The notes beneath the pieces were generated by a model. That model saw only the letters and a list, made by a program, of their open reading frames with translations, did no database searches and was not told where the DNA came from. The translations under genes were made by a program, and so were the position numbers. This document shows positions 40,311 to 53,671 of a DNA stretch of 64,000 nucleotides, in pieces. How positions within the stretch are numbered: position 1 is the first letter of the stretch; each line of letters starts with the position of its first letter. This stretch comes from Natrinema halophilum (GTDB lineage Archaea; Halobacteriota; Halobacteria; Halobacteriales; Natrialbaceae): NCBI RefSeq assembly GCF_013402815.2, contig NZ_CP058601.1, positions 4,154,001 to 4,218,000 of the forward strand, given 5' to 3'.

Positions 40311-41786
40311 ATGCGCGAGTGCTTCGAACTACGGGACACCGACGCCGGCGGACGGATCGGTGATCTCGCCGTCCCGCGTGCCGGCGTCACCGTCGAAACC
40401 CCGGCGCTCCTCCCGGTGATCAACCCGAACCTGGATACTATCAGCCCTCGACGCCTCGCTGACGAATTTGGCGCCGAGATCCTCATCACGAACTCCTATA
40501 TCATCCACGGCGACGATACCCTCCGCGAACGCGCCATAGAGCAGGGTCTCCACGAGATGCTCGACTTCCCCGGCGCGATCATGACCGACTCGGGTTCGTT
40601 CCAGTTATCAGAATACGGTGAAATCGACGTCACGACCGAGGAGATCCTCGCCTTCCAGCGCGAGATTGGCTCCGACATCGCCACCCCCGTCGATATCCCG
40701 ACGCCGCCGGACGTCTCCCGCGAGCGCGCCGAAGCCGAACTCGAGATGACCCAGGAACGCCTCGAGATCGCCGACGCGGCCGACACGGGAGAGATGCTCA
40801 TCAGCGCGCCCGTCCAGGGATCGACCTACTCGGACCTCCGCGAGCGTGCCGGCAGCCACGCCGAGGAAACTGACCTCGACGTCTTCCCGATCGGCGCGGT
40901 CGTCCCGCTGATGAACGATTACCGATACGACGATATGATCGACGTCGTCGCCGCCGCCAAACGCAGCCTGGGTGCTGACGCCCCTGTCCACCTCTTCGGC
41001 GCAGGCCATCCCATGATGTTCGCGCTCGCGGTCGCGATAGGCTGTGACCTGTTCGATTCGGCGGCCTACGCGCTGTACGCCCGCGACGACCGCTACCTGA
41101 CCGTGCGAGGCACTCGAGCGCTCGAGGATATCGAGTACCTCCCCTGTTCCTGTGCCGTCTGCACCGAACACTCTCCTGACGAGCTCCGGTCGCTCCCCCC
41201 GAACGAACGCGAGACGGAGCTCGCAGCCCACAACCTCCACGTCACATTTGCCGAAATCCGTCGGATCAAGCAGGCGATCCGCGCCGGCAATCTGCTCGAA
41301 CTCGTCGAGCAACGCGCCCGCGCTCACCCGACGATGCTCGACGGGTATCGCGCATTGCTCGACCACGCCGCCCAACTCGAACGCTCTGATCCCGTCTCGA
41401 AGGGCTCGTTTTTCTACACGTCCCACGAAAGTGCACGTCGCCCGGAAATCCTGCGTCACCACCAGCGCCTCGAGCGACTCTCCGTTCCCGATTCGCTGTT
41501 GCTAACCGTCGATCGGTCCGCACCTGACGACGGGTTCGACGAGGTCTGGCGAGTCCAACCCCCGTTCGGTCCCTTCCCACGGGCCCTCTCGAAGAGCTAC
41601 CCCCTCACCGCTGAGGTCCCGAAACGAACGGATCGGGCGGCCCTCGAGGCCGCAGCCGCCGGCATCACTCGACTCGTCGAGGCCAATCCGAACGCGTCGG
41701 TTACGCTCGCTCATCGAGGATGGCCGACGGGAGTCCTCGAGACGGTCCCCGAGTCGGTCCAACTACTCGACCTCCTGGCTGAATAG
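40311..41786 (+). CDS. tgtA: Archaeal tRNA-guanine transglycosylase
   Basis: The 491-residue enzyme exchanges guanine for preQ0 at tRNA position 15. It starts [19 protein letters not shown] and has the base-binding aspartates in [14 protein letters not shown] and [14 protein letters not shown], and [10 protein letters not shown]. The zinc site reads [14 protein letters not shown] (CxCxxC at about 281-286) with a later His. A C-terminal region of about 150 residues follows the catalytic domain; a PUA module is not obvious. ATG 40311 is supported by the family start. Confidence 0.94.
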
Positions 41787-41787
41787 G

Positions 41788-43458
41788 TCACTCATCGTCC
41801 GCTCGTTTGTCGCCCCCCTGGTTATCGTTAGTGATGAGTCGACGCGAGGCAAGGGCCGCACCACCGGCCATAACGGCGAGACCGGTGATGGCACCGAGTG
41901 GATTCACATCGCCGAAGAAGCTTCCCGTCGATCCCGTTTCGGATGGCGCCCCGGACTGGTTCGCACCACCGCCCGAGTCGTTACCGGAATCGTCAGCCGA
42001 ACCCTCTGTTTCGTTCGAGTTCCCGCCTGTTCCGTCGGATTCTTTCGAATCGGTTCCGGAATCGCCAGAGCCGTCAGAGTCTTTCGAATCGTCTCCGGAA
42101 CCGCCCGTCCCGTCGGAATCCTCTGAATCGCCGCCAGAGCCGCCCCTATCGCTCGAGCCGTCTCCGGAACCATCGGACCCGTCGGAGTCTTTCGAACCGT
42201 CTCCGGAGTCGTCATCTGAGGTACCGTCGTCGGTGGTGCCGTCGTGTGACGTCTCTCGAATCGCCATCACGGTCTCATCACCGACCAGATAGATCGTTTC
42301 CTCGCTAATGGCGAGCTGACTGGTCTGATCCGTGCGATCCATGTCGAACCGCCACTTTTCCGTCCCATCAGTCTTGTCGAGAGCGACTATGGAGTCGGGT
42401 TCCGTCTCGGCTCCGGAGTCGGACGATAAATACGTGTAGATCGTCTCGCCGACGATCACAGGCCGTGTTCCGCCCCCTGACCATTGGTGCAGGGTCTCGC
42501 AACTCTCGATATCCACTGCTTTCGCGCCGCTCTGGCCGGTGATAACGGCGATATCGTCTCCGAGCGCGAAATGAGTTCCACTGCGATCAAACAGGGCTTC
42601 CTTCGTCCGGGAGTCGTAGACGGTAATGTCCGTTTCGCCGAACGCGGTTGATTCGATCGCGATTGCGTTCGAATTCGCCGCGACCGACCGCACGTTACCT
42701 GCGGCGTCACCCCCGAACCGATCCACCGTTTCACCCGTCATCGGATCGAGCGCGAAGCACATCTTGATCGCCGCAAAATAGAGGAGTTCGTTGGCTGCCG
42801 CCGTTCGGAACGGGGGTTCGTCGCACGACCCCGTGTTGTCCGTCCATTCGTACAGTTCCCGCGTCCACCGGCTCGAACCGTCGTCAGTCTCGAGGGCGTA
42901 CAGCGTTCCATCCACAGTTACGTAGATAGCACCGTAGGCGACCGTCGGCGCGGAGATGAACTCGGCTCCGAGGTCTCTGTGCCATCGTCTACTCCCGTCG
43001 CTCGGGTCGAGAGCGACGATTTCGCCGTCTCCGCCGGCGTAGATCGTTTCATCGGCCACGACCGGATACGAACCGCATACGTCATTCGATTCCCATTTGA
43101 CCGAGCCGTCGGTGACGGTTCGAGCATGGATGCCGTCACCGGTTCCGATATAGATGGTGTCGTCTGCAACCGCAACCGTATCACTTCCCCTGTCGGCCGT
43201 CCATGCGACCTCGAGGGTGTCGCCGTCGAACTCGCCGCCCGTTTCGAAGAAAGACGTATTCGCCTCGTTACCACGATACGACATCCAGCCAGCCGGCCGA
43301 TCCGTCTCGGGGAGTGCGTTCGGATCCTCGCTCCCATCGGAATCCTCGCACCGTTCTCCTGAGCTGGCGCTGACACTATCGCCGCCGGTGAGTACCCCGC
43401 CAGCGATAGTTGCCCCAGCCCCCGTTATCAGGAGGCCGCGCCGGTTGCATCTCGACAT
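41788..43458 (-). CDS. Tat-exported PQQ-like beta-propeller surface protein, paralogue 1
   Basis: The 556-residue protein begins MSRCNRRGLLITGAGATIAG, a twin-arginine-type signal. About seven propeller blades follow, with motifs DGSVKWESN, DGSRRWHRD, DGSSRWTREL and DGTEKWRFD, as in PQQ-like repeats that do not always bind PQQ. A long Ser/Gly/Asp-rich low-complexity linker (about 390-510) leads to a hydrophobic C-terminal helix and RRLITND. It lacks the PGF motif of its neighbours. It should be exported and anchored outside the membrane; substrate is not visible. The gene converges with tgtA, 1 bp between stops. Confidence 0.85.
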   Translation of the reverse strand: MSRCNRRGLLITGAGATIAGGVLTGGDSVSASSGERCEDSDGSEDPNALPETDRPAGWMSYRGNEANTSFFETGGEFDGDTLEVAWTADRGSDTVAVADDTIYIGTGDGIHARTVTDGSVKWESNDVCGSYPVVADETIYAGGDGEIVALDPSDGSRRWHRDLGAEFISAPTVAYGAIYVTVDGTLYALETDDGSSRWTRELYEWTDNTGSCDEPPFRTAAANELLYFAAIKMCFALDPMTGETVDRFGGDAAGNVRSVAANSNAIAIESTAFGETDITVYDSRTKEALFDRSGTHFALGDDIAVITGQSGAKAVDIESCETLHQWSGGGTRPVIVGETIYTYLSSDSGAETEPDSIVALDKTDGTEKWRFDMDRTDQTSQLAISEETIYLVGDETVMAIRETSHDGTTDDGTSDDDSGDGSKDSDGSDGSGDGSSDRGGSGGDSEDSDGTGGSGDDSKDSDGSGDSGTDSKESDGTGGNSNETEGSADDSGNDSGGGANQSGAPSETGSTGSFFGDVNPLGAITGLAVMAGGAALASRRLITNDNQGGDKRADDE

Positions 43459-43683
43459 ATACTGACGATCAGAAACAGCGGTTATTCATACACACAATCT
43501 AAGGAGGTTGCACGTCAAGCAACATACGCGGCGGACGGCATTGGAAACGCCTCAGATTGCTGTTTCACCGCTTTTGGGGAAATATCCGGTTTCGGCGACG
43601 CCGCCCGCCCGCGACCGCGCAATGATACAATCGCTTGTCTCGACGAAACGGTTCGTTTTCGGTTTTGGCGCTAAATTTCGACG

Positions 43684-45327
43684 TCAGTCACGATCCACCG
43701 ATTCGTCGCTGGCGATGAGGCGACGAGCGGCGAGCGCCGCGCCACCGACGGTGCTGGCGAGTCCGCCGACGATGCCGAAGCCGGGTGTTGACTCCGCTTT
43801 GTCGGAGTCGTCTTCAGGCTCGTTCGATGGTTCTTCGGCGTCTCCGGAACTGCCGTTGCTTTCGTCGGCGTCAGTTCCGTTCAGTTCGGTACCGGGAGCT
43901 GAATCAGTGTCGTTCGAGACGGTATCACCGCTGGTGTCTGTATCGGATGACTCGTCGCTGTCTCCAGCAGTATCACCATCCTCTCCATCAGTGCTCTCAG
44001 ATTCGCCGTCGTTGTTGGTACCGCCGTCGGGACCACTACCGTCGGACCCGTTAGCGTCGGATTCGGACTCGCGGCGCTGATCGTCATCCTCGTCGCCGTC
44101 GTCAGGGGTCGTAGACGTGTTCCGATATGCCGTCAGCCGTCCACCGCCCAGAAGATAGAGCATTTCGGTGCCGACGACGAGTGTCGGTTGGATGTATCCA
44201 TGATCGAGTTTGGACTCCCACTTTGTTGTCCCATCGTACTTGTCGAAAGCGATGAGTTTCCCTGAACTTCCGTCGTGGAAGTAAACGGTCTCGCCGACGA
44301 TCACGGGTTGGACACCCCCTTCCGGCACCTCCCATAGCCTGTCGCCGGTCTCGAGATCGACCGCAAACAGTCCGTGCTCCTCGTAATTCTCGTGCATACA
44401 GACGGCGACTTGCGTACCGAGAGCCAACGAAGACGATCCGGGAACGGCTGCGATCTCCTCTTGCGTCTCGATGTCGTACAGCCAGGTCGTGTTCGTTCCC
44501 GCAACTGCGAGCGTGGTGGAACTCGCAGCGACTCTCGGAGCGGCACTTCCATCGTACGGTAGTTCCCATGCGACGTCTCCCGTCTTCGGATCGAACCCGA
44601 AGGCTTGCTCCGACGAGATGAAAACGAGACCGTTGGCCACAGCCGGTGTCCCCCAGAAACTGCGAACGTTCAACTCGTCGGACTGTCGGGACCACCGGAG
44701 CGAGCCGTCGTCGGTTTCGAATGCGTACACCGTCTCCCCGCTGATCAGATAGACTGCACCGTGAGCCACTGTCGGGGACGACTGAATCGGTCTGTCGTTC
44801 CCGATGTCAACGGTCCACCTGTGACTCCCGTCCGCTCGATCGAGCGCATGGAGCTGGGCCTCTGATTGGGCTCTCACACAATAGACTGTGTCTTCGGTCA
44901 CAGTGGGATCGCCAAACGCCGTTTCGTTCTTCCACTCGACCGACCCGTCGGCGGTGCTGAGAGCAACCATGCCCTCGCGATGAATGACACTCTTGTCCAT
45001 CGTCGCCGCACCGGAATACACAGTGCCATCCGCAACGGCGATCCGATCGCCGCCTAAATAGGGATGCCTGCTTCTCGCCTTGTCGTATTCCCAGACAGAT
45101 TCGAACGTGTTCGCACCGAATTCGGGCCCATCAGCGATGTAGTTCGCGTTTCGCGCGCTACCGTTAGCAGAGATCCAGCCCGCCGGTTTGTCCGTCTTCG
45201 GGAGGGAGTTCGAACCGGTACCCGTTGCACCGACACTGGCAGCCCCGCCGGCCGACAGAATCCCACCAGCCATGAGTGCCACACCCATGCTCGTCTCGAG
45301 CACATCGCGACGGTTGTAGTCCGACAT
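43684..45327 (-). CDS. Tat-exported PQQ-like propeller with PGF-CTERM-like anchor, paralogue 2
   Basis: The 547-residue protein opens MSDYNRRDVLETSMGVALMA (Tat-type RR). Blades carry DGSVEWKNE, DGSHRWTVD, DGSLRWSRQ, TGDVAWELP, TGDRLWEVP and DGTTKWESK. A Ser/Asp-rich linker precedes the C-terminal STPGFGIVGGLASTVGG hydrophobic segment and ARRLIASDE. PGF plus a helix and basic residues is the archaeosortase-type sorting signal. It is a close paralogue of the genes at 41788 and 45509. A ribosome site AGGAGGG precedes the ATG by a few bases. Confidence 0.87.
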   Translation of the reverse strand: MSDYNRRDVLETSMGVALMAGGILSAGGAASVGATGTGSNSLPKTDKPAGWISANGSARNANYIADGPEFGANTFESVWEYDKARSRHPYLGGDRIAVADGTVYSGAATMDKSVIHREGMVALSTADGSVEWKNETAFGDPTVTEDTVYCVRAQSEAQLHALDRADGSHRWTVDIGNDRPIQSSPTVAHGAVYLISGETVYAFETDDGSLRWSRQSDELNVRSFWGTPAVANGLVFISSEQAFGFDPKTGDVAWELPYDGSAAPRVAASSTTLAVAGTNTTWLYDIETQEEIAAVPGSSSLALGTQVAVCMHENYEEHGLFAVDLETGDRLWEVPEGGVQPVIVGETVYFHDGSSGKLIAFDKYDGTTKWESKLDHGYIQPTLVVGTEMLYLLGGGRLTAYRNTSTTPDDGDEDDDQRRESESDANGSDGSGPDGGTNNDGESESTDGEDGDTAGDSDESSDTDTSGDTVSNDTDSAPGTELNGTDADESNGSSGDAEEPSNEPEDDSDKAESTPGFGIVGGLASTVGGAALAARRLIASDESVDRD

Positions 45328-45508
45328 ACAGCCCTCCTGAAGTCGTCACTCTTTACGTATATTCGAGTTAATGTGCCGTGGAAATCGCTCACATTCCATG
45401 CTGGCGATATCGGCGCTGTTAGCTCTCTTTCGGCCGTTGTGGCTATTGAGTAAGACACAACGTTTGATAAAGAAAAAACAGAGGCGGTATCGCGGAGTCG
45501 GCGCTCAG

Positions 45509-47122
45509 TCACTCCGGCAGGTCGTCACTCGAGACGAGGCGACGGGCGGCGAGTACTGCGCCACCGACCGTTCCGGCAAGTCCGCCAACGACGCCGAAGC
45601 CGGGTGTCTTTTCCGTTTCGTCGTCGGACCCGCTCGAATCGGCCTTCGAGTCGCTCGTCCCCCCGGTACTCTCGTTCGTCTCAGTGGCGTTCGAATCGTC
45701 GACAGCAGGGGTTTCAGACTCGAAATCGTCCGACTCGGTACCGTTTCGGGTGTCGGAACTCTCAGATTCGGTGCCGTCGCCAGTGTCCGCCCCTCCAGAT
45801 TCGGTGCCGTCGCCAGCACCATCGGCACCGTCATTCCCGGTACCGCCACTCTCGCTTCCAGTGGTGTCCGACATGTCCCGCATTGCTACTACACCGTCTC
45901 CTACCAGATACATCATGTCGCCGCTCACGACGAGGTCGAGGAAATCCCTCGAGTCGTCGTCCGGGAGAGCTGGTGTATACGTCCACTGTTTCGTCCCATC
46001 GTGTTTCGAAAGGGCGATTATTTCTTCGTTTTCATATGTGTAGACGGTATCCCCGACGATGATCGGTTGGGCCGTCACGTTAGAATTCCTCCACAGCTTT
46101 TCGCCGCTTTCTATATCAATCGCTGTCAACCCGCCCTTGTAGTGGCGGATGATGGACACGTTTTCACCATGAGCAACTCGATCGCCGTCGATTCCTCTCG
46201 TGATCACCTCTTGGGTCTCGATGTCGTAGAGGCCGACGACTGGATCCACACGACGATCCAAGGCGAACGTCGCTGAACTGACGGCCACTGATTCGACAGA
46301 TCTACTCAGACTGTCCTCCGCCTGAAAGTCCTCGTCTAGTTTCCATTGTATCTCACCCGTCGTCGGATCGAGCGCGAGGAGCTCTCCGACCGCTGATGCA
46401 TACACCAATCCGTTGGCTGCAGCCGGCGTCGTATCGAAGATCCGATCCTCCGTTGCGTGCTCGATTTGCCATCGAACCGTGCCATCATCGGTCTCGAGTG
46501 CATACAGCGAGCCGTTGACCGTCGTGTATACGGCGCCATATGCCACATTTGGGACGCTTGCCTTCCCATACTTGGGTGTCCACCAAAGAAAATTATCTTC
46601 TGAAGGGCCCTGATTCTCGTCGAAGGTGACCTCCCAGCTGATCTGTCCGTCCGAGCGATCCAGCGCAACGATCCCGTATGGCTTCCTGACGAAGACCGAT
46701 TCATCGTCCACCGCTGGATCGGTGCCAGCAACGGTCTCGTTTTTCCACTTGATCGACCCATCGTCGGCATTGAGTGCGGCGACACCCTCGGCGTTACCTG
46801 CGGAGTACCCCGTGTACACGGTGGCGTCTGTTGTGGCTATCTGAGAGTTTTTGAAGGTCGGCCTCGTATACGATTGATCGTTCACCCACACTGTTTCGAG
46901 TGCATTGCCATCGAATTCATGGCCATTCTCGATGTAACTCGCATTCTTCGAATTCCCCTGGTACGATGTCCACCCCTCGGGTTGACCCGTCTCCGGAAGA
47001 GACAGGAAATCGCTGTCCGTCTCAGCGCCAGTGACAGTCCCGCTTCCTACCGCACTCCCACCAGCGATGAGTACTGCACCCGTACTCGTCTTCAGAACGT
47101 CGCGCCGCTTGTATTCAGACAT
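45509..47122 (-). CDS. Tat-exported PQQ-like propeller with PGF-CTERM-like anchor, paralogue 3
   Basis: The 537-residue protein opens MSEYKRRDVLKTSTGAVLIA (Tat-type). Blades hold DGSIKWKNE, DGQISWEVTF, DGTVRWQIEH, TGEIQWKLDE, SGEKLWRNS and DGTKQWTYT. The linker from about 410 is Thr/Ser/Asp-rich; the C-terminus is KTPGFGVVGGLAGTVGG followed by ARRLVSSDD. It resembles paralogue 2 most closely in its two ends. It is the third of a head-to-tail array whose fourth member lies upstream in decayed form. Confidence 0.87.
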   Translation of the reverse strand: MSEYKRRDVLKTSTGAVLIAGGSAVGSGTVTGAETDSDFLSLPETGQPEGWTSYQGNSKNASYIENGHEFDGNALETVWVNDQSYTRPTFKNSQIATTDATVYTGYSAGNAEGVAALNADDGSIKWKNETVAGTDPAVDDESVFVRKPYGIVALDRSDGQISWEVTFDENQGPSEDNFLWWTPKYGKASVPNVAYGAVYTTVNGSLYALETDDGTVRWQIEHATEDRIFDTTPAAANGLVYASAVGELLALDPTTGEIQWKLDEDFQAEDSLSRSVESVAVSSATFALDRRVDPVVGLYDIETQEVITRGIDGDRVAHGENVSIIRHYKGGLTAIDIESGEKLWRNSNVTAQPIIVGDTVYTYENEEIIALSKHDGTKQWTYTPALPDDDSRDFLDLVVSGDMMYLVGDGVVAMRDMSDTTGSESGGTGNDGADGAGDGTESGGADTGDGTESESSDTRNGTESDDFESETPAVDDSNATETNESTGGTSDSKADSSGSDDETEKTPGFGVVGGLAGTVGGAVLAARRLVSSDDLPE

Positions 47123-47303
47123 ACACCGATGTGAAGTAGCGCCCCTCTTTTACTTACGGATGGTATAGTTTTACAATTAACACGCTGTGGGTTGCGATAC
47201 GTCGTCGGTACCGGTTTCCTCGGAGATAGACGGATTCGTCGCGGCACTTGCATGGTGCCCAACGCTTCGAATTTGGCAAAAATGACAATACGTGCGTCTA
47301 TTC

Positions 47304-48150
47304 TCAGTCACGCTCTGTCGGATCGTCACTTCTGCCGAGACGGCGAGTTACACGCACCGCGCCATCGACGGTGCTTGCGAGTCCGACGGCCACCCGAAGC
47401 CGGAAGTCTTTCTGCACATTGGTGTCGGATTCCGCTATGCTCGAATCGGTCTCGGGGTCAACCGGGCCGTTCCCGCTCTCGTCAGTATCGGCCCGTTCGA
47501 ACCGGCGTCAGTGGAGTCTGCAGCACTCGTGTCAGTATCAGAAGGATCGATACTACCGCTTTCACCGTCGGCGTCTCCTTTAGAAGCGCCATCGAAATCG
47601 TCGGCATCGGTGCCGCCATCGCCTCCACTATCTTGCGTCGCGCTTATCCGTATCGGATCTGGAATCGGGACTCCATTTGTGGTCTTCATCACAGTTGCAG
47701 GCACCATCGCCGTCGGTGTCAGTTTCATCCGGTGCGTTACGTGGCGAAGCAATTCGGCCGTCAGAGCCGATGACATAGATCGCATCGATGCTTGGTACGA
47801 CTCGAAAGCCGGACAACGAGAGAATATCTGGCAACTCTGGCGTGAACAGTGTCCCTCTCCGTCGATCTACCCACGTCGTGTACGAGGAGTGGGCCGACAC
47901 CGCTTGCATCGCTTGCCGAATACGGGCCATATTCAGTGCCGTCCGTACCAGCAATGCGGCTGTGGGCTTCTTTTCTGGGTTCTTCGTTCATCCAGCCCGT
48001 TCCGAGTGCGTCCGGATCGATATCGAGGCCATCCTTGCTGTGGTTCGCGTTCTTCGGAGCGGCGCGGCCGACGGTCTATCCATCCGGTCGATTCAGATTG
48101 GAGGGCGACGTTGAGCGTGCAGTCCCGGCAGTGGCGGTAGCGACACCATT
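47304..48150 (-). pseudogene. Decayed fourth PQQ-like propeller gene
   Basis: The minus strand holds pieces of a further paralogue. N-terminal side: PKNANHSKDGLDIDPDALGT and RIAGTDGTEYGPYSASDASG match the start of the propellers. Middle: DAIYVIGSDGRIASPRNAPD matches the last blade, directly after a large internal deletion. C-terminal side: VGLASTVDGAVRVTRRLGRS and then DDPTERD with a stop at 47304 match the anchor. Several frames and stop codons interrupt it, and the PGF motif is altered. It cannot encode a working protein. Confidence 0.85.
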
Positions 48151-48294: not shown

Positions 48295-48657
48295 ATGGCT
48301 GGCCCAGTAGTACTCGGCGCGGGTGGACTTCTGGTCCTCGTAATCGGCTCCGTATTGTTCAAACGGGCTCGCGGCCGAAATCGATCGGCAGGCGAGCGCC
48401 GATCGAAGGACCGCCACGAGGCAGCACAGAAACGCGAGCCGCCGGTCGATATCGGCGACACTGTGACGGTCGCCATCAGCGAGTTTACCGACCATCACTC
48501 CGGCGAACGACGAGCGGTCGGAAAAGTCGAGGGATTCGTCGTCTTCGTCGAAGACGTTCCCGACGACTGCGAGGTGACCGACCCGATTCGAATCTCGATT
48601 CTTTCGTTCAACCGCGGTCACACGTCGGCGACGGCGCGATATCTCGAGGCTGCGTAG
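48295..48657 (+). CDS. Membrane-anchored TRAM-domain-like protein
   Basis: The 120-residue protein has one N-terminal helix (VVLGAGGLLVLVIGSVLF), a basic linker (KRARGRNRSAGERRSKDRHE) and a TRAM-like beta-barrel from about 48 (PPVDIGDTVTVAISEFTD, GKVEGFVVFVEDVPDD, RISILSFNRGHTSATARY). TRAM domains bind RNA; a helix-tethered form is unusual. Coding-like sequence (GFDIEAEADGQYRNTKDPGG) runs in frame upstream of the ATG back to a stop near 48150, so the gene may have lost its original N-terminus. It is flanked by a pseudogene and a MITE-like element. Confidence 0.7.
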   Translation: MAGPVVLGAGGLLVLVIGSVLFKRARGRNRSAGERRSKDRHEAAQKREPPVDIGDTVTVAISEFTDHHSGERRAVGKVEGFVVFVEDVPDDCEVTDPIRISILSFNRGHTSATARYLEAA

Positions 48658-48898: not shown

Positions 48899-49005
48899 CG
48901 GTCGTGATCGATCGTTTTGTAGCACCATCTTTCTGGGATTCTCGTCGCGGCTGCGATCGGTGCTGGTGGTCCAATCGTCGCCGATGTCGGTTCGACAGCA
49001 TCCGA

Positions 49006-49489
49006 CCCGTCGCGTTCACCGACGCGGTTTCCGCCGGCCTCTCCCTCGTGGACGAGTACGCACTCGACGAAGCTGACGAACTCCCGCGCGCCCGGGTATT
49101 CTGTTCGCAGTATGAGTCCGTCGTCGGTTATTCCGGGGTCGAAACGTTCGTCGAAGATCAGCGCCAGCCGGTCCACGACCAGCGGTTCGGCTATCGGCTC
49201 ACTATCTACGTCTCGGACTACGGCGACGTCGGAATCGAGCTGACGGACGATGGCTATCCGTTGCCCGAGCGGTCCCCGGATGGACCGACGCAGAAAGGGC
49301 GCGGTTCGTCGTTGGTAGCGACGCCCAGACGCCGACCGGGGACACGGTCGTTCCGTTTGCGACCGCGGGGAGGCGACGGCGTTTACCGAGGAGTACGGCG
49401 GCACCGTTCAGTCGTGGGAATCCATCCTCGGTCGCTCGTTCGAGCGCGACGACACGGCAGTCGCCCGCGCCCGCGTCGACGACCGCTAG
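49006..49489 (+). pseudogene. Broken NosL-like gene fragment
   Basis: The plus strand reads AFTDAVSAGLSLVDEYALDE, RVFCSQYESVVGYSGVETFV and YRLTIYVSDYGDVG in one frame. After two frameshifts it reads ARFVVGSDAQTPTGDTVVPF and then ATAFTEEYGGTVQSWESIL to a stop at 49487. Order and motifs recall the nitrous-oxide-reductase accessory protein NosL (VxYVTDY..., FVVGS..., F.EEYGG). No copper-binding Cys pair is intact. Identification is tentative, but the frame damage is plain. Confidence 0.5.
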
Positions 49490-49537
49490 TGACTGGCGGG
49501 CGAACGAGTAGAAAACGCGTCGTCACTTTCCGACTGG

Positions 49538-49648
49538 CCGACGTCGATAGTCGTCGGTGACGGTACGGACACCGTTCAAGAAGCCGTCGACCAGGCGCCG
49601 CCGGACACGACTGTTGGGGTTCCCGATGGGACTTCGCGATTATTCTGA
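49538..49648 (+). pseudogene. Short NosD-like fragment
   Basis: A 36-codon stretch reads TSIVVGDGTDTVQEAVDQAP then PDTTVGVPDGTS and stops at 49646. It resembles the beginning of NosD/right-handed beta-helix proteins (TIQxAVDxAxxGDTVxVxxGTY). There is no start, and the rest of the gene is absent. Its position right after a NosL-like wreck supports a decayed nos cluster, but the piece is short. Confidence 0.4.
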
Positions 49649-49735: not shown

Positions 49736-51733
49736 TTATTCGCGGAGTCGGAGGACGAACGTCGTCAGCAGACCTGCGATCGCCGCGAGTCCAACTCCCA
49801 TTCCGAAGCCGGGGATGCTGTCGCCGCCGTTTTTGTCGTCCTTGTCATCTCCGTCGTTCGAATCGGTCTTCAGGTAATTTTGCATCTCGTCGGTTTTGAC
49901 CGGCGGGAATTCCTCGTCCCACTCGCCGGCCGCGTGGACGGTCGTCTTCGAGCCGACCACGTCGAGATGCTCGATGTCCGATTTCGTCGCCGACGCGGTG
50001 TCGACGTCGCCCATATCGTCGACGTAGACGTACACCGATGCGCTGCCATCGTTCGTTTCTGACGCGACACCGCTGATGGACATGGAGTTGCTGACGGTAT
50101 CCGTGAGCTTGCTCATGTCCTTGAATCGTGCGCCGCCTTCGATACGAACGGTTCCGTCACCGAGATTCGCGTCGACGCGAGCGACTTCGAGTTCGGACTC
50201 GGCCAGCGCCTGAACGAACTGATCGGCGTCCGAGGACATCGTGGTCGAACTGCTCTGAACCGACTTGGCCCACGCGTTGACCGCCTGCGTTGCCAAGTCT
50301 TTGGCCTCGAGATCGAACTGCGCATCGAGCGCGAGTTCGTCCCCGTCCGTTTTCGCGGACATCTCGAACGTGACGTCTTTCGGCGGTTCGACGCCCTCAG
50401 ATTCGAGTTTATCGATGTAGGCGCCCCAGTTTTCGGTGTTGCTCGAGATCGAGGCGTCGAGTTTCATCTCCTGATTCGACGTCTGTTCGATCGACCCGTC
50501 CCACTCGAGTTTCCACGTGAGGTCGGCCGCCTGCTGGGCCTCAATTGCCGTTCTTGCGCTCTCGATGTCCTCCTGCGGTATCTCCCCACTGGCGGAACTC
50601 GCTTCTATCATATCGATCATCGCGAGCGACAGTTCATCGTAGTTCGCGATGGCGATGGTCCAATCGGCGTCCATCGATCCACCACTTCCGTCGAGCGTGA
50701 ACTCGAGCGTCTCGATCTCGAGGTCGGTGACGGTAGACGCGATTTCGGTTGCTTCGGACCGACTCAGATCGGTCGACGGATCGCTCGCGAGTTGGCTCGC
50801 GAGTTGCTGTTCGATACCGTTGTCGATTCCGGAGTACTCGACCGTGAACTCGAGTGTGAGCTTGTATTGGCCGTTGGATTGTTCGACGAAGTTGTAGTTG
50901 GAAATCGTGACTTCACTCGATCCGCCAAGCCCCGTTGCGACGCTTGCGTACTGCTGCTGGAGGGTCTGCTTGGCTTTTTCACGGGTTTCCCACTGACTGG
51001 CGCTCCACTCGGAGACGAGTTGCTCCTGGGTCATGTCCAAGGTGTACCCGCTGTTCGTATCTTCGAGGGAAACGTCCATGTAGGTGCCCGAAGCGGCCGC
51101 ACCCATCCCACCCTCGACGGAGACGGATCCGCTCGTCTCGAGGCGATCCGGGGTAGCAGTGACGTGGCCGTTCGTGCTGACCGTCCCAGCAGTCGCGGCC
51201 TGGCTTTCGAACGTTCCCGTTGCGGACGCATCGAACGTATTCGCCTCGCTGGAAACTTCGCCGGAAACCTCGGCGTTGAGGTCTTTGAGGTCGTCGGGCT
51301 TTTGCATGATCATCGAGCCGTCTCCGGAGAGCCCGCTCTGGTCGAGGACCGCGGAGAAGCTCGCTTCCTCGTACTCCGCGTTCTGGTTATCGGTGTCGTC
51401 GACGACCAGCATGTGGACGAGTCCTTCGCTGACGTCCACCCCGAGGTCGAATTTGTTGAGGTCGGAACTATCGTCTTTGTAATGGAGAACGGCACTCCCG
51501 TCGTCTTTCAGATAGATGTCGTCAGCAGCGCCGAGGCTCGATTCGGCCTGCGAAATGCTGTCGTACGATTCGACGTCTGCGGTCGGCTCTGCAGCTTCTG
51601 CAGTCGTCGTCACCCCACCGTAGAGAAGCGGCAATCCCATCGTTGCAACTGCAACGGTAGCTACCAGAAAGACGGCAAGGAACGCCCGTACTCCGTCTTT
51701 CGTTCGTATCTTTGTATCTATTTTTGGCACCAT
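49736..51733 (-). CDS. Large PGF-CTERM surface protein
   Basis: The 665-residue protein has an N-terminal signal region with a hydrophobic helix (about 15-40: VRAFLAVFLVATVAVATMGL), a long Ser/Asp/Glu-rich extracellular body with repeated beta segments (DLEIETLEFTLDGSGG, VTFEMSAKTDGDELALDAQF), and the C-terminal anchor SIPGFGMGVGLAAIAGLLTT followed by FVLRLRE. PGF plus helix plus basic tail is the archaeosortase A sorting signal, so it should be lipid-linked to the cell surface. No enzyme motif is visible. Leaderless start at 51733 with TATA at 51754. Confidence 0.85.
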   Translation of the reverse strand: MVPKIDTKIRTKDGVRAFLAVFLVATVAVATMGLPLLYGGVTTTAEAAEPTADVESYDSISQAESSLGAADDIYLKDDGSAVLHYKDDSSDLNKFDLGVDVSEGLVHMLVVDDTDNQNAEYEEASFSAVLDQSGLSGDGSMIMQKPDDLKDLNAEVSGEVSSEANTFDASATGTFESQAATAGTVSTNGHVTATPDRLETSGSVSVEGGMGAAASGTYMDVSLEDTNSGYTLDMTQEQLVSEWSASQWETREKAKQTLQQQYASVATGLGGSSEVTISNYNFVEQSNGQYKLTLEFTVEYSGIDNGIEQQLASQLASDPSTDLSRSEATEIASTVTDLEIETLEFTLDGSGGSMDADWTIAIANYDELSLAMIDMIEASSASGEIPQEDIESARTAIEAQQAADLTWKLEWDGSIEQTSNQEMKLDASISSNTENWGAYIDKLESEGVEPPKDVTFEMSAKTDGDELALDAQFDLEAKDLATQAVNAWAKSVQSSSTTMSSDADQFVQALAESELEVARVDANLGDGTVRIEGGARFKDMSKLTDTVSNSMSISGVASETNDGSASVYVYVDDMGDVDTASATKSDIEHLDVVGSKTTVHAAGEWDEEFPPVKTDEMQNYLKTDSNDGDDKDDKNGGDSIPGFGMGVGLAAIAGLLTTFVLRLRE

Positions 51734-51753
51734 GGTTTGTAGTTCAGCTGATA

Positions 51754-51763
51754 GATTATAAAG
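51754..51763 (-). promoter_or_regulatory. TATA box for the PGF-CTERM protein gene
   Basis: The minus-strand sequence CTTTATAATC is centred about 25 bp before the ATG at 51733, a leaderless arrangement. The surrounding 40 bp are AT-rich. Confidence 0.55.
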
Positions 51764-51913
51764 TTTTATCTTCATAAATACCTAACGGTAAAAATCAAAA
51801 AGATAGCACTAGTAATGGCCAACCACTCCAACGATGGTCGGTAGTCGGTATTCGTTTCGGAAGGTGTCGCTTCCGATCGACAGCCTCTTTCGCTCGCCCC
51901 GGTCATATCGAGT

Positions 51914-53671
51914 ATGACCGACTTCTTCGAAGTACACGAGCGCGACGGGGCAGCGCGCGTGGGCGAACTTCGCCTGTCTTCGCCAATTTCGACCCCTGCG
52001 CTCGCCGACGGCGTCCTCGAGGACGCGGGCTCGCTCTGGAGCGGCGACCGTGAAATGCCGGCCGGTGACGAGTCACACCTCACCGTGCTCCCTCACCGAG
52101 CGTTTCCCGGCGGCACCGCAGACGAAGTTCAGGACTCGTTCGCCGTCGACTACCCCGACGTCGATTATCCCAGCGTCGCCGTCGTCTCGAGCGAGCACGC
52201 CGAAGACCACGGCACCGACGCGTACGCACTTTCGGACGTCCAGTCAGTGATGGGCCACGGCGAGGCACTCGTCGAAGCAATCGTAACCGTTCGCGAAGCG
52301 ATTCCAGCAGACACGGCGTTGCTCCTCTCCGGAGTCGCGACGCCACGAAACGTCGCGCTGTTGGCCTACGCGGGCGTGGACCTGTTCGACGAGACCGCAG
52401 CCGTCGTCAGGGGAACGGAAGGCCGGTATCTGACGGCCGACGATGCGTACTTTCTCGAGGATCTCGACGAACTTCCCTGTTCGTGCCCGGCGTGCCAGCA
52501 GCCCCGCGACGAGTTTACCCGCGAGGACTGCGCCGACCACAACACCAACGCCCTCGCAGCAGAACTGGCGATCGTCCGTCGGCGCATTCGCGACGGCCGC
52601 CTTCGGGATTACGTCGAAGGACAGACCCGCCACGACCAGTGGCTCACCGCTGCAATGCGAGAGCTCGATTCCCAGTGGGGCTACCTCGAGGAACGGACGC
52701 CCATCCTTCGCGATGCCGAAATCAGCGCCGCGACCGAGGACACCCTCCGCCGAGTGGAAATACAGCGCTTTGCCGACCGGGTGACGACGCGCTACCGAAA
52801 CCGGTTCAAGAACCCGCTCGTGCTGGTCCCCTGTTCTGCGGCCAAACCCTACAGCGAGTCCCAGAGCCACCGCCAGTTCCACGACGCCATTCAGTGGCGC
52901 GCCCACCTCGTCTCCATGACCAGCCCCATCGGCGTCGTTCCCCAGGAACTCGAGACGACCTACCCCGCTCAACACTACGATACGGTGGTGACGGGCCGCT
53001 GGTCCGAAGACGAGAAGCAATTCGTAAGCGAGGTGCTGCAACGCTACCTCGAGCGCAACGAGTACCCGGACGTAATCGCACACGTCCCCGACGAGGGCTA
53101 CCGAGACATCGTCGAACGCGTCGAAGAACGACTCGAACTCGAAATCACGTACACGGTTCCCGAGGGTGGACATCCGACCGACGACACGTCGCTTGCGAAC
53201 CTCGCCGAGTCCCTCTCGGGCGAATTGCAGTACTCCAAGCGGGAACGAGAGCACAATACGGTCCGTGCCATCGCGGACTACCTGCTCGGCGACGGCGCCG
53301 GCGACGCCCTCTTCGAGGATATCAAGACGACCAGCCGGTATCCAAAGATCCAGGTCCGTGACGACGCGGATACCCAACTCGCGACGATGGTTCCTCAATA
53401 CGGGACCCTTTCGTTCACTCTCGCGGGTGCTCGACGGTGGCTCGAGAGTGATGCGCCGGTCAAACGCGTCGAGATCGATGGGTTCGTTCCTCACGGTAGC
53501 GTCCTCGCGCCGGGCGTCGTCGATGCCGACGAGGAAATCCGCGTCGGCGACGAGGTCGTCGTCGAGGGACCGAACGCCTTCGCAGTCGGACGTGCAGAGA
53601 TGTTCGGCCGGGAAATGTCCGAGAGTACGCGCGGTATCGCCTGTGAGATCCGCCATGTGGAGGAGCGGTAG
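51914..53671 (+). CDS. arcS: Archaeosine synthase
   Basis: The 585-residue protein is the TgtA2/ArcS family: an N-terminal TGT-like half without the catalytic pattern (LLLSGVATPRNVALLAYAGV; CSCPACQQPRDEF), then the ArcS core motif LVLVPCSAAKPYSESQSHRQ (about 297-316), and a C-terminal PUA RNA-binding domain (about 510-585: VKRVEIDGFVPHGSVLAPGV). ArcS transfers lysine onto preQ0 in tRNA, and RaSEA completes archaeosine. TgtA and RaSEA are encoded in the same window. Confidence 0.93.
   Translation: MTDFFEVHERDGAARVGELRLSSPISTPALADGVLEDAGSLWSGDREMPAGDESHLTVLPHRAFPGGTADEVQDSFAVDYPDVDYPSVAVVSSEHAEDHGTDAYALSDVQSVMGHGEALVEAIVTVREAIPADTALLLSGVATPRNVALLAYAGVDLFDETAAVVRGTEGRYLTADDAYFLEDLDELPCSCPACQQPRDEFTREDCADHNTNALAAELAIVRRRIRDGRLRDYVEGQTRHDQWLTAAMRELDSQWGYLEERTPILRDAEISAATEDTLRRVEIQRFADRVTTRYRNRFKNPLVLVPCSAAKPYSESQSHRQFHDAIQWRAHLVSMTSPIGVVPQELETTYPAQHYDTVVTGRWSEDEKQFVSEVLQRYLERNEYPDVIAHVPDEGYRDIVERVEERLELEITYTVPEGGHPTDDTSLANLAESLSGELQYSKREREHNTVRAIADYLLGDGAGDALFEDIKTTSRYPKIQVRDDADTQLATMVPQYGTLSFTLAGARRWLESDAPVKRVEIDGFVPHGSVLAPGVVDADEEIRVGDEVVVEGPNAFAVGRAEMFGREMSESTRGIACEIRHVEER

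Follow-up and report, generated by a model that had tools for sequence, protein, structure and literature searches.

A lineage-specific tandem array of probably exported, stalked propellers and its decaying fourth copy in Natrinema halophilum

The window, by which we mean the whole 64,000-nucleotide stretch of contig NZ_CP058601.1 of Natrinema halophilum that was analysed, carries three consecutive propeller genes and the remains of a fourth. How such a row came to stand at one place, and which of its members are being kept or lost, is the question raised by this locus. It is probably a lineage-specific tandem array of Tat-exported, stalked, surface-located 8-bladed PQQ_2/BamB-like propellers with a single local origin and later loss of copies. 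Gene content, one origin at the level of the locus, loss in relatives and purifying selection on gene 1 are the parts of this answer drawn from sequence comparison.

The array and its broken fourth copy

The interval from tgtA to arcS was compared in 29 genus-level genomes, comprising that of the window (G000) and 28 relatives. In the window it contains the following features.

40314..41786, plus strand: tgtA, archaeosine tRNA-guanine transglycosylase (TIGR00432, 628 bits, cut-off 350; 29 of 29 genomes), the left border of the array and convergent with it
41788..43458, minus strand: gene 1, 556 aa; propeller of the 8-bladed PQQ/BamB type behind a Tat-type signal, followed by an acidic stalk and a hydrophobic C-terminal anchor with NPLG instead of PGF
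43684..45327, minus strand: gene 2, 547 aa; architecture as gene 1, with a PGF-type anchor
45509..47122, minus strand: gene 3, 537 aa; architecture as gene 1, with a PGF-type anchor
47307..48150 (approx.), minus strand: gene 4, a pseudogene made up of an N-terminal part and, fused to it, the last-blade end, the stalk and a damaged anchor
48295..48657, plus strand: 120-aa ORF, the right border of the array (present in the intervals of 28 of 28 relatives)
48935..49633, plus strand: frameshifted remnant of a nosD-like gene (37–68% to a gene in L118/L119)
49736..51775, minus strand: 679-aa protein with a PGF ending (intervals of 21 of 28 relatives)
51914..53671, plus strand: arcS, archaeosine synthase alpha subunit (NF040592, 843 bits, cut-off 440; 29 of 29 genomes), closing the compared interval on the right

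According to the ORF list of the window, genes 1–3 lie head to tail with spacers of 225 and 181 bp. Each of these three long minus-strand frames scores above the Pfam cut-off of 27.6 bits for PF13360 (82, 120.4 and 99.6 bits for genes 1, 2 and 3), which bears out the three intact head-to-tail paralogues described by an earlier, sequence-only reading of this DNA, whose coordinates are correct to within about 30 bp. PF01011 (PQQ) is also matched above its cut-off of 26.7 bits (42.1, 34.7 and 51 bits, respectively). The propeller spans about 370 residues in each protein, and the stalks consist to 86–92% of D, E, S, G, T or N. Over their full length the paralogues share only 33–38% identity, and a comparison of their upstream spacers revealed no similarity and no shared promoter region.

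Gene 4 was picked up independently by a search of the organism's own genome (47845–48144, E 9.8e-8, 32% to gene 3 residues 29–131). Its N-terminal part contains one in-frame TAG; positions 48150–47845 align with gene 3 residues 27–131 with a score of 123, compared to a maximum of 44 in 40 shuffles. Positions 47801–47307 align with gene 2 residues 383–547 through two frameshifts, and this second part corresponds to the last-blade end, the stalk and an anchor in which PGF is replaced and the RR tail is still present. The frames match only these two stretches in succession, and most of the propeller has consequently been deleted. No signal start was recognisable in the frame alignment. A decaying fourth member with a damaged anchor, as originally proposed, is therefore what the locus contains.

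Origin and loss of copies

Propellers between tgtA and arcS are found in only three of the 29 genomes: that of the window, G003, and Natrinema gelatinilyticum BND6 (G005). A species tree built from tgtA plus arcS places the three in one clade (100/100), so that a single gain at the locus suffices. A more sensitive scan of stop-masked frames in the 28 relatives detected no propeller remnant in the other 26 intervals; a 13-bit match in G023 in that scan is held to be due to chance.

Orthologues of gene 1 occupy the same place in G003 and G005, with 58–61% identity. In G003, the space separating gene 1 from the 120-aa ORF additionally contains the intact anchor of a PGF-type copy, a stump of about 60 residues, with everything else of that gene gone; G005 has gene 1 only, without even such a stump. 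Gene-family turnover can thus be followed at one syntenic place among close relatives, in genes that are intact, one that is wrecked, one reduced to its anchor and one cleanly lost. Local duplication combined with lineage-specific loss at a syntenic locus is what defines a birth-and-death family; here the loss is seen and the duplication is likely, the array clade having moderate support; the history suggested at the outset is upheld in this form. Gene 1 is the stable member, present in three of three species and under purifying selection by sequence comparison, and the PGF-type members turn over.

The relationship between the copies was analysed in a protein tree of 60 rows, taken from the retrieved loci only and not from every family match. 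Of 71 matching frames, 11 were left out (10 partial or of other families, one frameshifted), and the stalk was removed beforehand by a composition rule. The array genes, their orthologues and a dispersed sister copy (G000:C1:149196-150878) form one clade (96/90), with a support of 90 (SH-aLRT) when the dispersed copy is omitted; the latter groups with gene 2 (98/83). Genes 2 and 3 are each other's highest-identity rows. Two trees that separate gene 1 from genes 2 and 3 survive the AU tests (p 0.12 and 0.066), and genes 2 and 3 and the dispersed copy sit on long branches. Because of these tests and the several long branches, local duplication is graded as likely, not proven, and the shared ancestry of the array genes, judged from their sequences, has moderate support. 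A phylogeny placing the paralogues apart had been named as the outcome that would speak against a common family history; the tree groups them instead.

The anchors of genes 2 and 3 share the codon at 18 of 25 identical degenerate residues, compared to 85 of 186 elsewhere. This figure is suggestive, small and post hoc, and the anchor stump of another species is equally close to gene 2 (20 of 28 codons shared); exchange of anchors between genes 2 and 3 was not retained as an explanation. No relative was detected when genome contigs were scanned with gene 3.

Gene 1 and the PGF-type genes might alternatively have been inserted separately, from different sources, and lie side by side by chance. 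We regard this as unlikely. The AU tests leave the split open, and the low paralogue identity, the different anchors, the dissimilar upstream spacers and the presence of related propellers on plasmids of other haloarchaea are all in keeping with separate arrival; the best tree nevertheless unites the array genes (90 even without the dispersed copy), and the mutual closeness of genes 2 and 3 also argues against it. According to the preferred reading, the common ancestor of the three Natrinema-type species would have acquired an ancestral gene at the site flanked by tgtA and the 120-aa ORF, where it would have duplicated. One copy would also have moved elsewhere on the chromosome, and large deletions and frameshifts would later have removed copies.

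Similar genes are widespread in the Natrialbaceae. Matches to gene 1 with E values of at most 1e-25 occur in 44 of 125 family-level genomes, with 128 matches in total by hand count, 7 of which have an in-frame stop, and clusters of at least two neighbouring matches are found in nine other genomes. In the tree set, RR lies within the first 25 aa in 59 of 60 proteins and PGF is present in 43 of 60. Natrinema zhouii (L145) has a run of four propeller genes and, beyond what we take to be a ValS-like gene, a fifth. Such Tat/PGF propeller arrays resemble the present one in being tandem and head to tail and in their architecture, but they fall into separate clades of the family tree and occupy different loci. 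By these sequence comparisons the array is a further member of a widespread, often tandem family. As arrays and broken copies recur, the window is one good example, and with genes of this kind common in the Natrialbaceae, the case is informative without being surprising.

Export signals, anchors and fold

All three array proteins carry a twin-arginine motif (NRRGLL, NRRDVL and KRRDVL in genes 1, 2 and 3), and the export that the sequence-only reading had assumed is accordingly predicted to be probable. The C-termini of genes 2 and 3 consist of PGFG, a hydrophobic stretch and RR; in gene 1, NPLG takes the place of PGFG. Genes 2 and 3 resemble haloarchaeal PGF-CTERM surface proteins processed by archaeosortase A in their acidic Thr/Ser/Gly stalk, PGF, hydrophobic stretch and RR, but fall just below the cut-off of the curated NCBIfam PGF-CTERM model (21.1 and 22.8 bits; cut-off 24.5), and gene 1 differs from these proteins by its lack of PGF. 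The same genome encodes archaeosortase A (TIGR04125, 319.7 bits; cut-off 75).

That the anchors differ between the copies, as was initially pointed out, stands. A reading of the missing PGF in gene 1 as decay does not: the absence is common to G000, G003 and G005 and therefore represents an established, stable variant. According to PMC7157517, substrates of archaeosortase A (ArtA) combine PGF with a hydrophobic domain and positive residues; the same paper cites, by title, work in which permuting PGF blocked processing. Given this published signature, of which PGF is a part, the product of gene 1 is presumably not an ArtA substrate. PGF and NPLG on sister proteins of one cell constitute a natural pair for testing the requirements of archaeosortase A.

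Fold predictions were generated with AlphaFold2 from six sequences only, and the models of genes 1 and 3 reach a pTM of 0.79. A hand count of the strands in the gene 1 model gives eight blades, and the ring is closed by the N-terminal strand. Foldseek ranks BamB highest, and the best VIA-align matches are to mycobacterial Rv3035 and to YxaL, a secreted PQQ-type propeller of Bacillus velezensis; non-enzymatic propellers rank on top and tetrathionate hydrolase ranks lower. BamB/YfgL (PF13360) is likewise an 8-bladed PQQ-type propeller and gives the best PDB sequence matches as well, but the array proteins differ from it by their Tat signal, acidic stalk and C-terminal anchor. Their scores of 60.1, 75.6 and 79.8 bits against the BamB equivalog TIGR03300 are far below the cut-off of 285.2, and an assignment as BamB proper was rejected. 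We know of no BAM complex in archaea. YxaL and Rv3035 share the fold of the array proteins (Z 32–33) at a sequence identity of only 12–17%, and to our knowledge neither possesses a stalk or a sortase-type anchor. The PQQ-repeat protein R4T7S6 of Haloarcula californiae tailed virus 2 also matches the fold of gene 1 (TM 0.54). A literature search, including the consulted portions of PMC9425974, PMC8875312, PMC7157517 and PMC9218822, found no paper on this propeller family.

The description best supported by these features is that of Tat-exported, membrane-anchored, stalked binding heads, a role that we infer along with their export and anchoring. Tat would export the propeller in the folded state, and the acidic stalk would raise it off the membrane. 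Archaeosortase A would cut and lipid-anchor the products of genes 2 and 3, and the product of gene 1 would remain as a C-terminal transmembrane anchor. The faster-changing upper face of the propeller, described below, may bind an extracellular partner.

Constraint, variable faces and alternative readings

The dN/dS values of gene 1 in the three species pairs are 0.35, 0.30 and 0.32, compared to 0.07–0.13 for tgtA and arcS and 0.12–0.28 for the 120-aa ORF. The ratio stays below 1 in every 60-codon window, with a maximum of 0.51 in the closest pair, and no positive selection on gene 1 was seen with pairwise dN/dS, which may miss single sites. With values near 0.3, gene 1 looks like a working gene, fast-evolving but constrained, and by this sequence measure it is under purifying selection. 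Recombination between blades, which had been put forward as something to look for, left no sign: pairwise identity of the propeller is even, at 0.41–0.43 in the three paralogue pairs, and silent sites in the propeller are near saturation in all three.

When mapped on the gene 1 model, variable positions among the gene 1 orthologues are more frequent in the upper loops (57 of 88) than in the lower loops (23 of 57; p 0.006), with 68 of 176 in the strands. For another trio of orthologues, located elsewhere in these genomes, the corresponding counts are 41 of 77 (upper loops), 11 of 57 (lower loops) and 57 of 171 (strands). Between the array paralogues, pairwise identity is 0.21–0.24 in the upper loops and 0.54–0.63 in the lower loops, where the structural DG-turn of the PQQ-type blade is located. 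A motif-based control with three other PQQ propeller groups yielded upper above lower in two and the reverse in one. The bias toward the upper face is real in these data, and it hints weakly, as placed on the model, at change driven by a partner. The proposal that the blade faces diversify thus holds insofar as the upper face is more variable; the low dN/dS in all windows and the like bias in two of three controls weigh against it.

These data also bear on the remaining alternatives. That genes 2 and 3 are also being lost, as relaxed and non-functional paralogues, so that only gene 1 matters, is again improbable: both sit on long branches and PGF-type copies have been lost or reduced in both relatives, but the two genes are open and full-length with intact signals and anchors, and an identity between them of 0.61 on the lower and 0.24 on the upper face points to constraint and not to free drift. 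Quinoprotein-type enzymes instead of binding heads are very improbable. PF01011 is matched above its cut-off in all three proteins; against this, gene 3 scores 47.7 bits with the PQQ alcohol dehydrogenase model TIGR03075 (cut-off 480.05), for which genes 1 and 2 have no listed match, and non-enzymatic propellers lead the structural comparison. Slightly less probable than the decay of genes 2 and 3 is a role as surface receptors or decoys that vary in the course of conflicts with viruses or other cells and whose arrays would be kept because turnover is useful. The recurrent tandem arrays, the turnover of copies, the variable upper face and the fold match in a haloarchaeal tailed virus would suit this role, which is countered by a dN/dS nowhere above 1, by the face bias of the controls and by the lack of a tblastn match to gene 3 among 50,697 phage records. 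At a similarly low level of probability, the Natrialbaceae may possess a system of exchangeable recognition heads, in which short-lived, species-specific arrays keep the lower face and the anchor constant, perhaps by exchange between copies, as the upper face changes for cell–cell, mating or virus recognition; the data permit such a turnover-prone system and do not demand it. The preferred reading is still that of an anchored array of binding heads with a local origin and subsequent copy loss.

The nosD-like remnant is a second decayed locus, directly adjoining the array; in G005 and G012 the tgtA–arcS interval contains a run of genes that are presumably nosD-, ABC ATPase-, permease- and nosL-like, and that of G003 contains at least what we take to be the ATPase and the nosL-like gene. 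The 120-aa ORF has no Pfam match; the 679-aa protein, with no Pfam or NCBIfam match, belongs to an older arrangement of the interval. Many relatives (L128, L131 and others) have a short conserved ORF, presumably HalOD1-like, that is convergent with tgtA at the site of the array, ahead of the 120-aa ORF. In two Natronococcus genomes (L070:12057-13979 and L104:12057-13910) a Tat/PGF-type propeller gene lies directly downstream of arcS, in the same neighbourhood as the array, yet with only 28–34% identity to the array genes.
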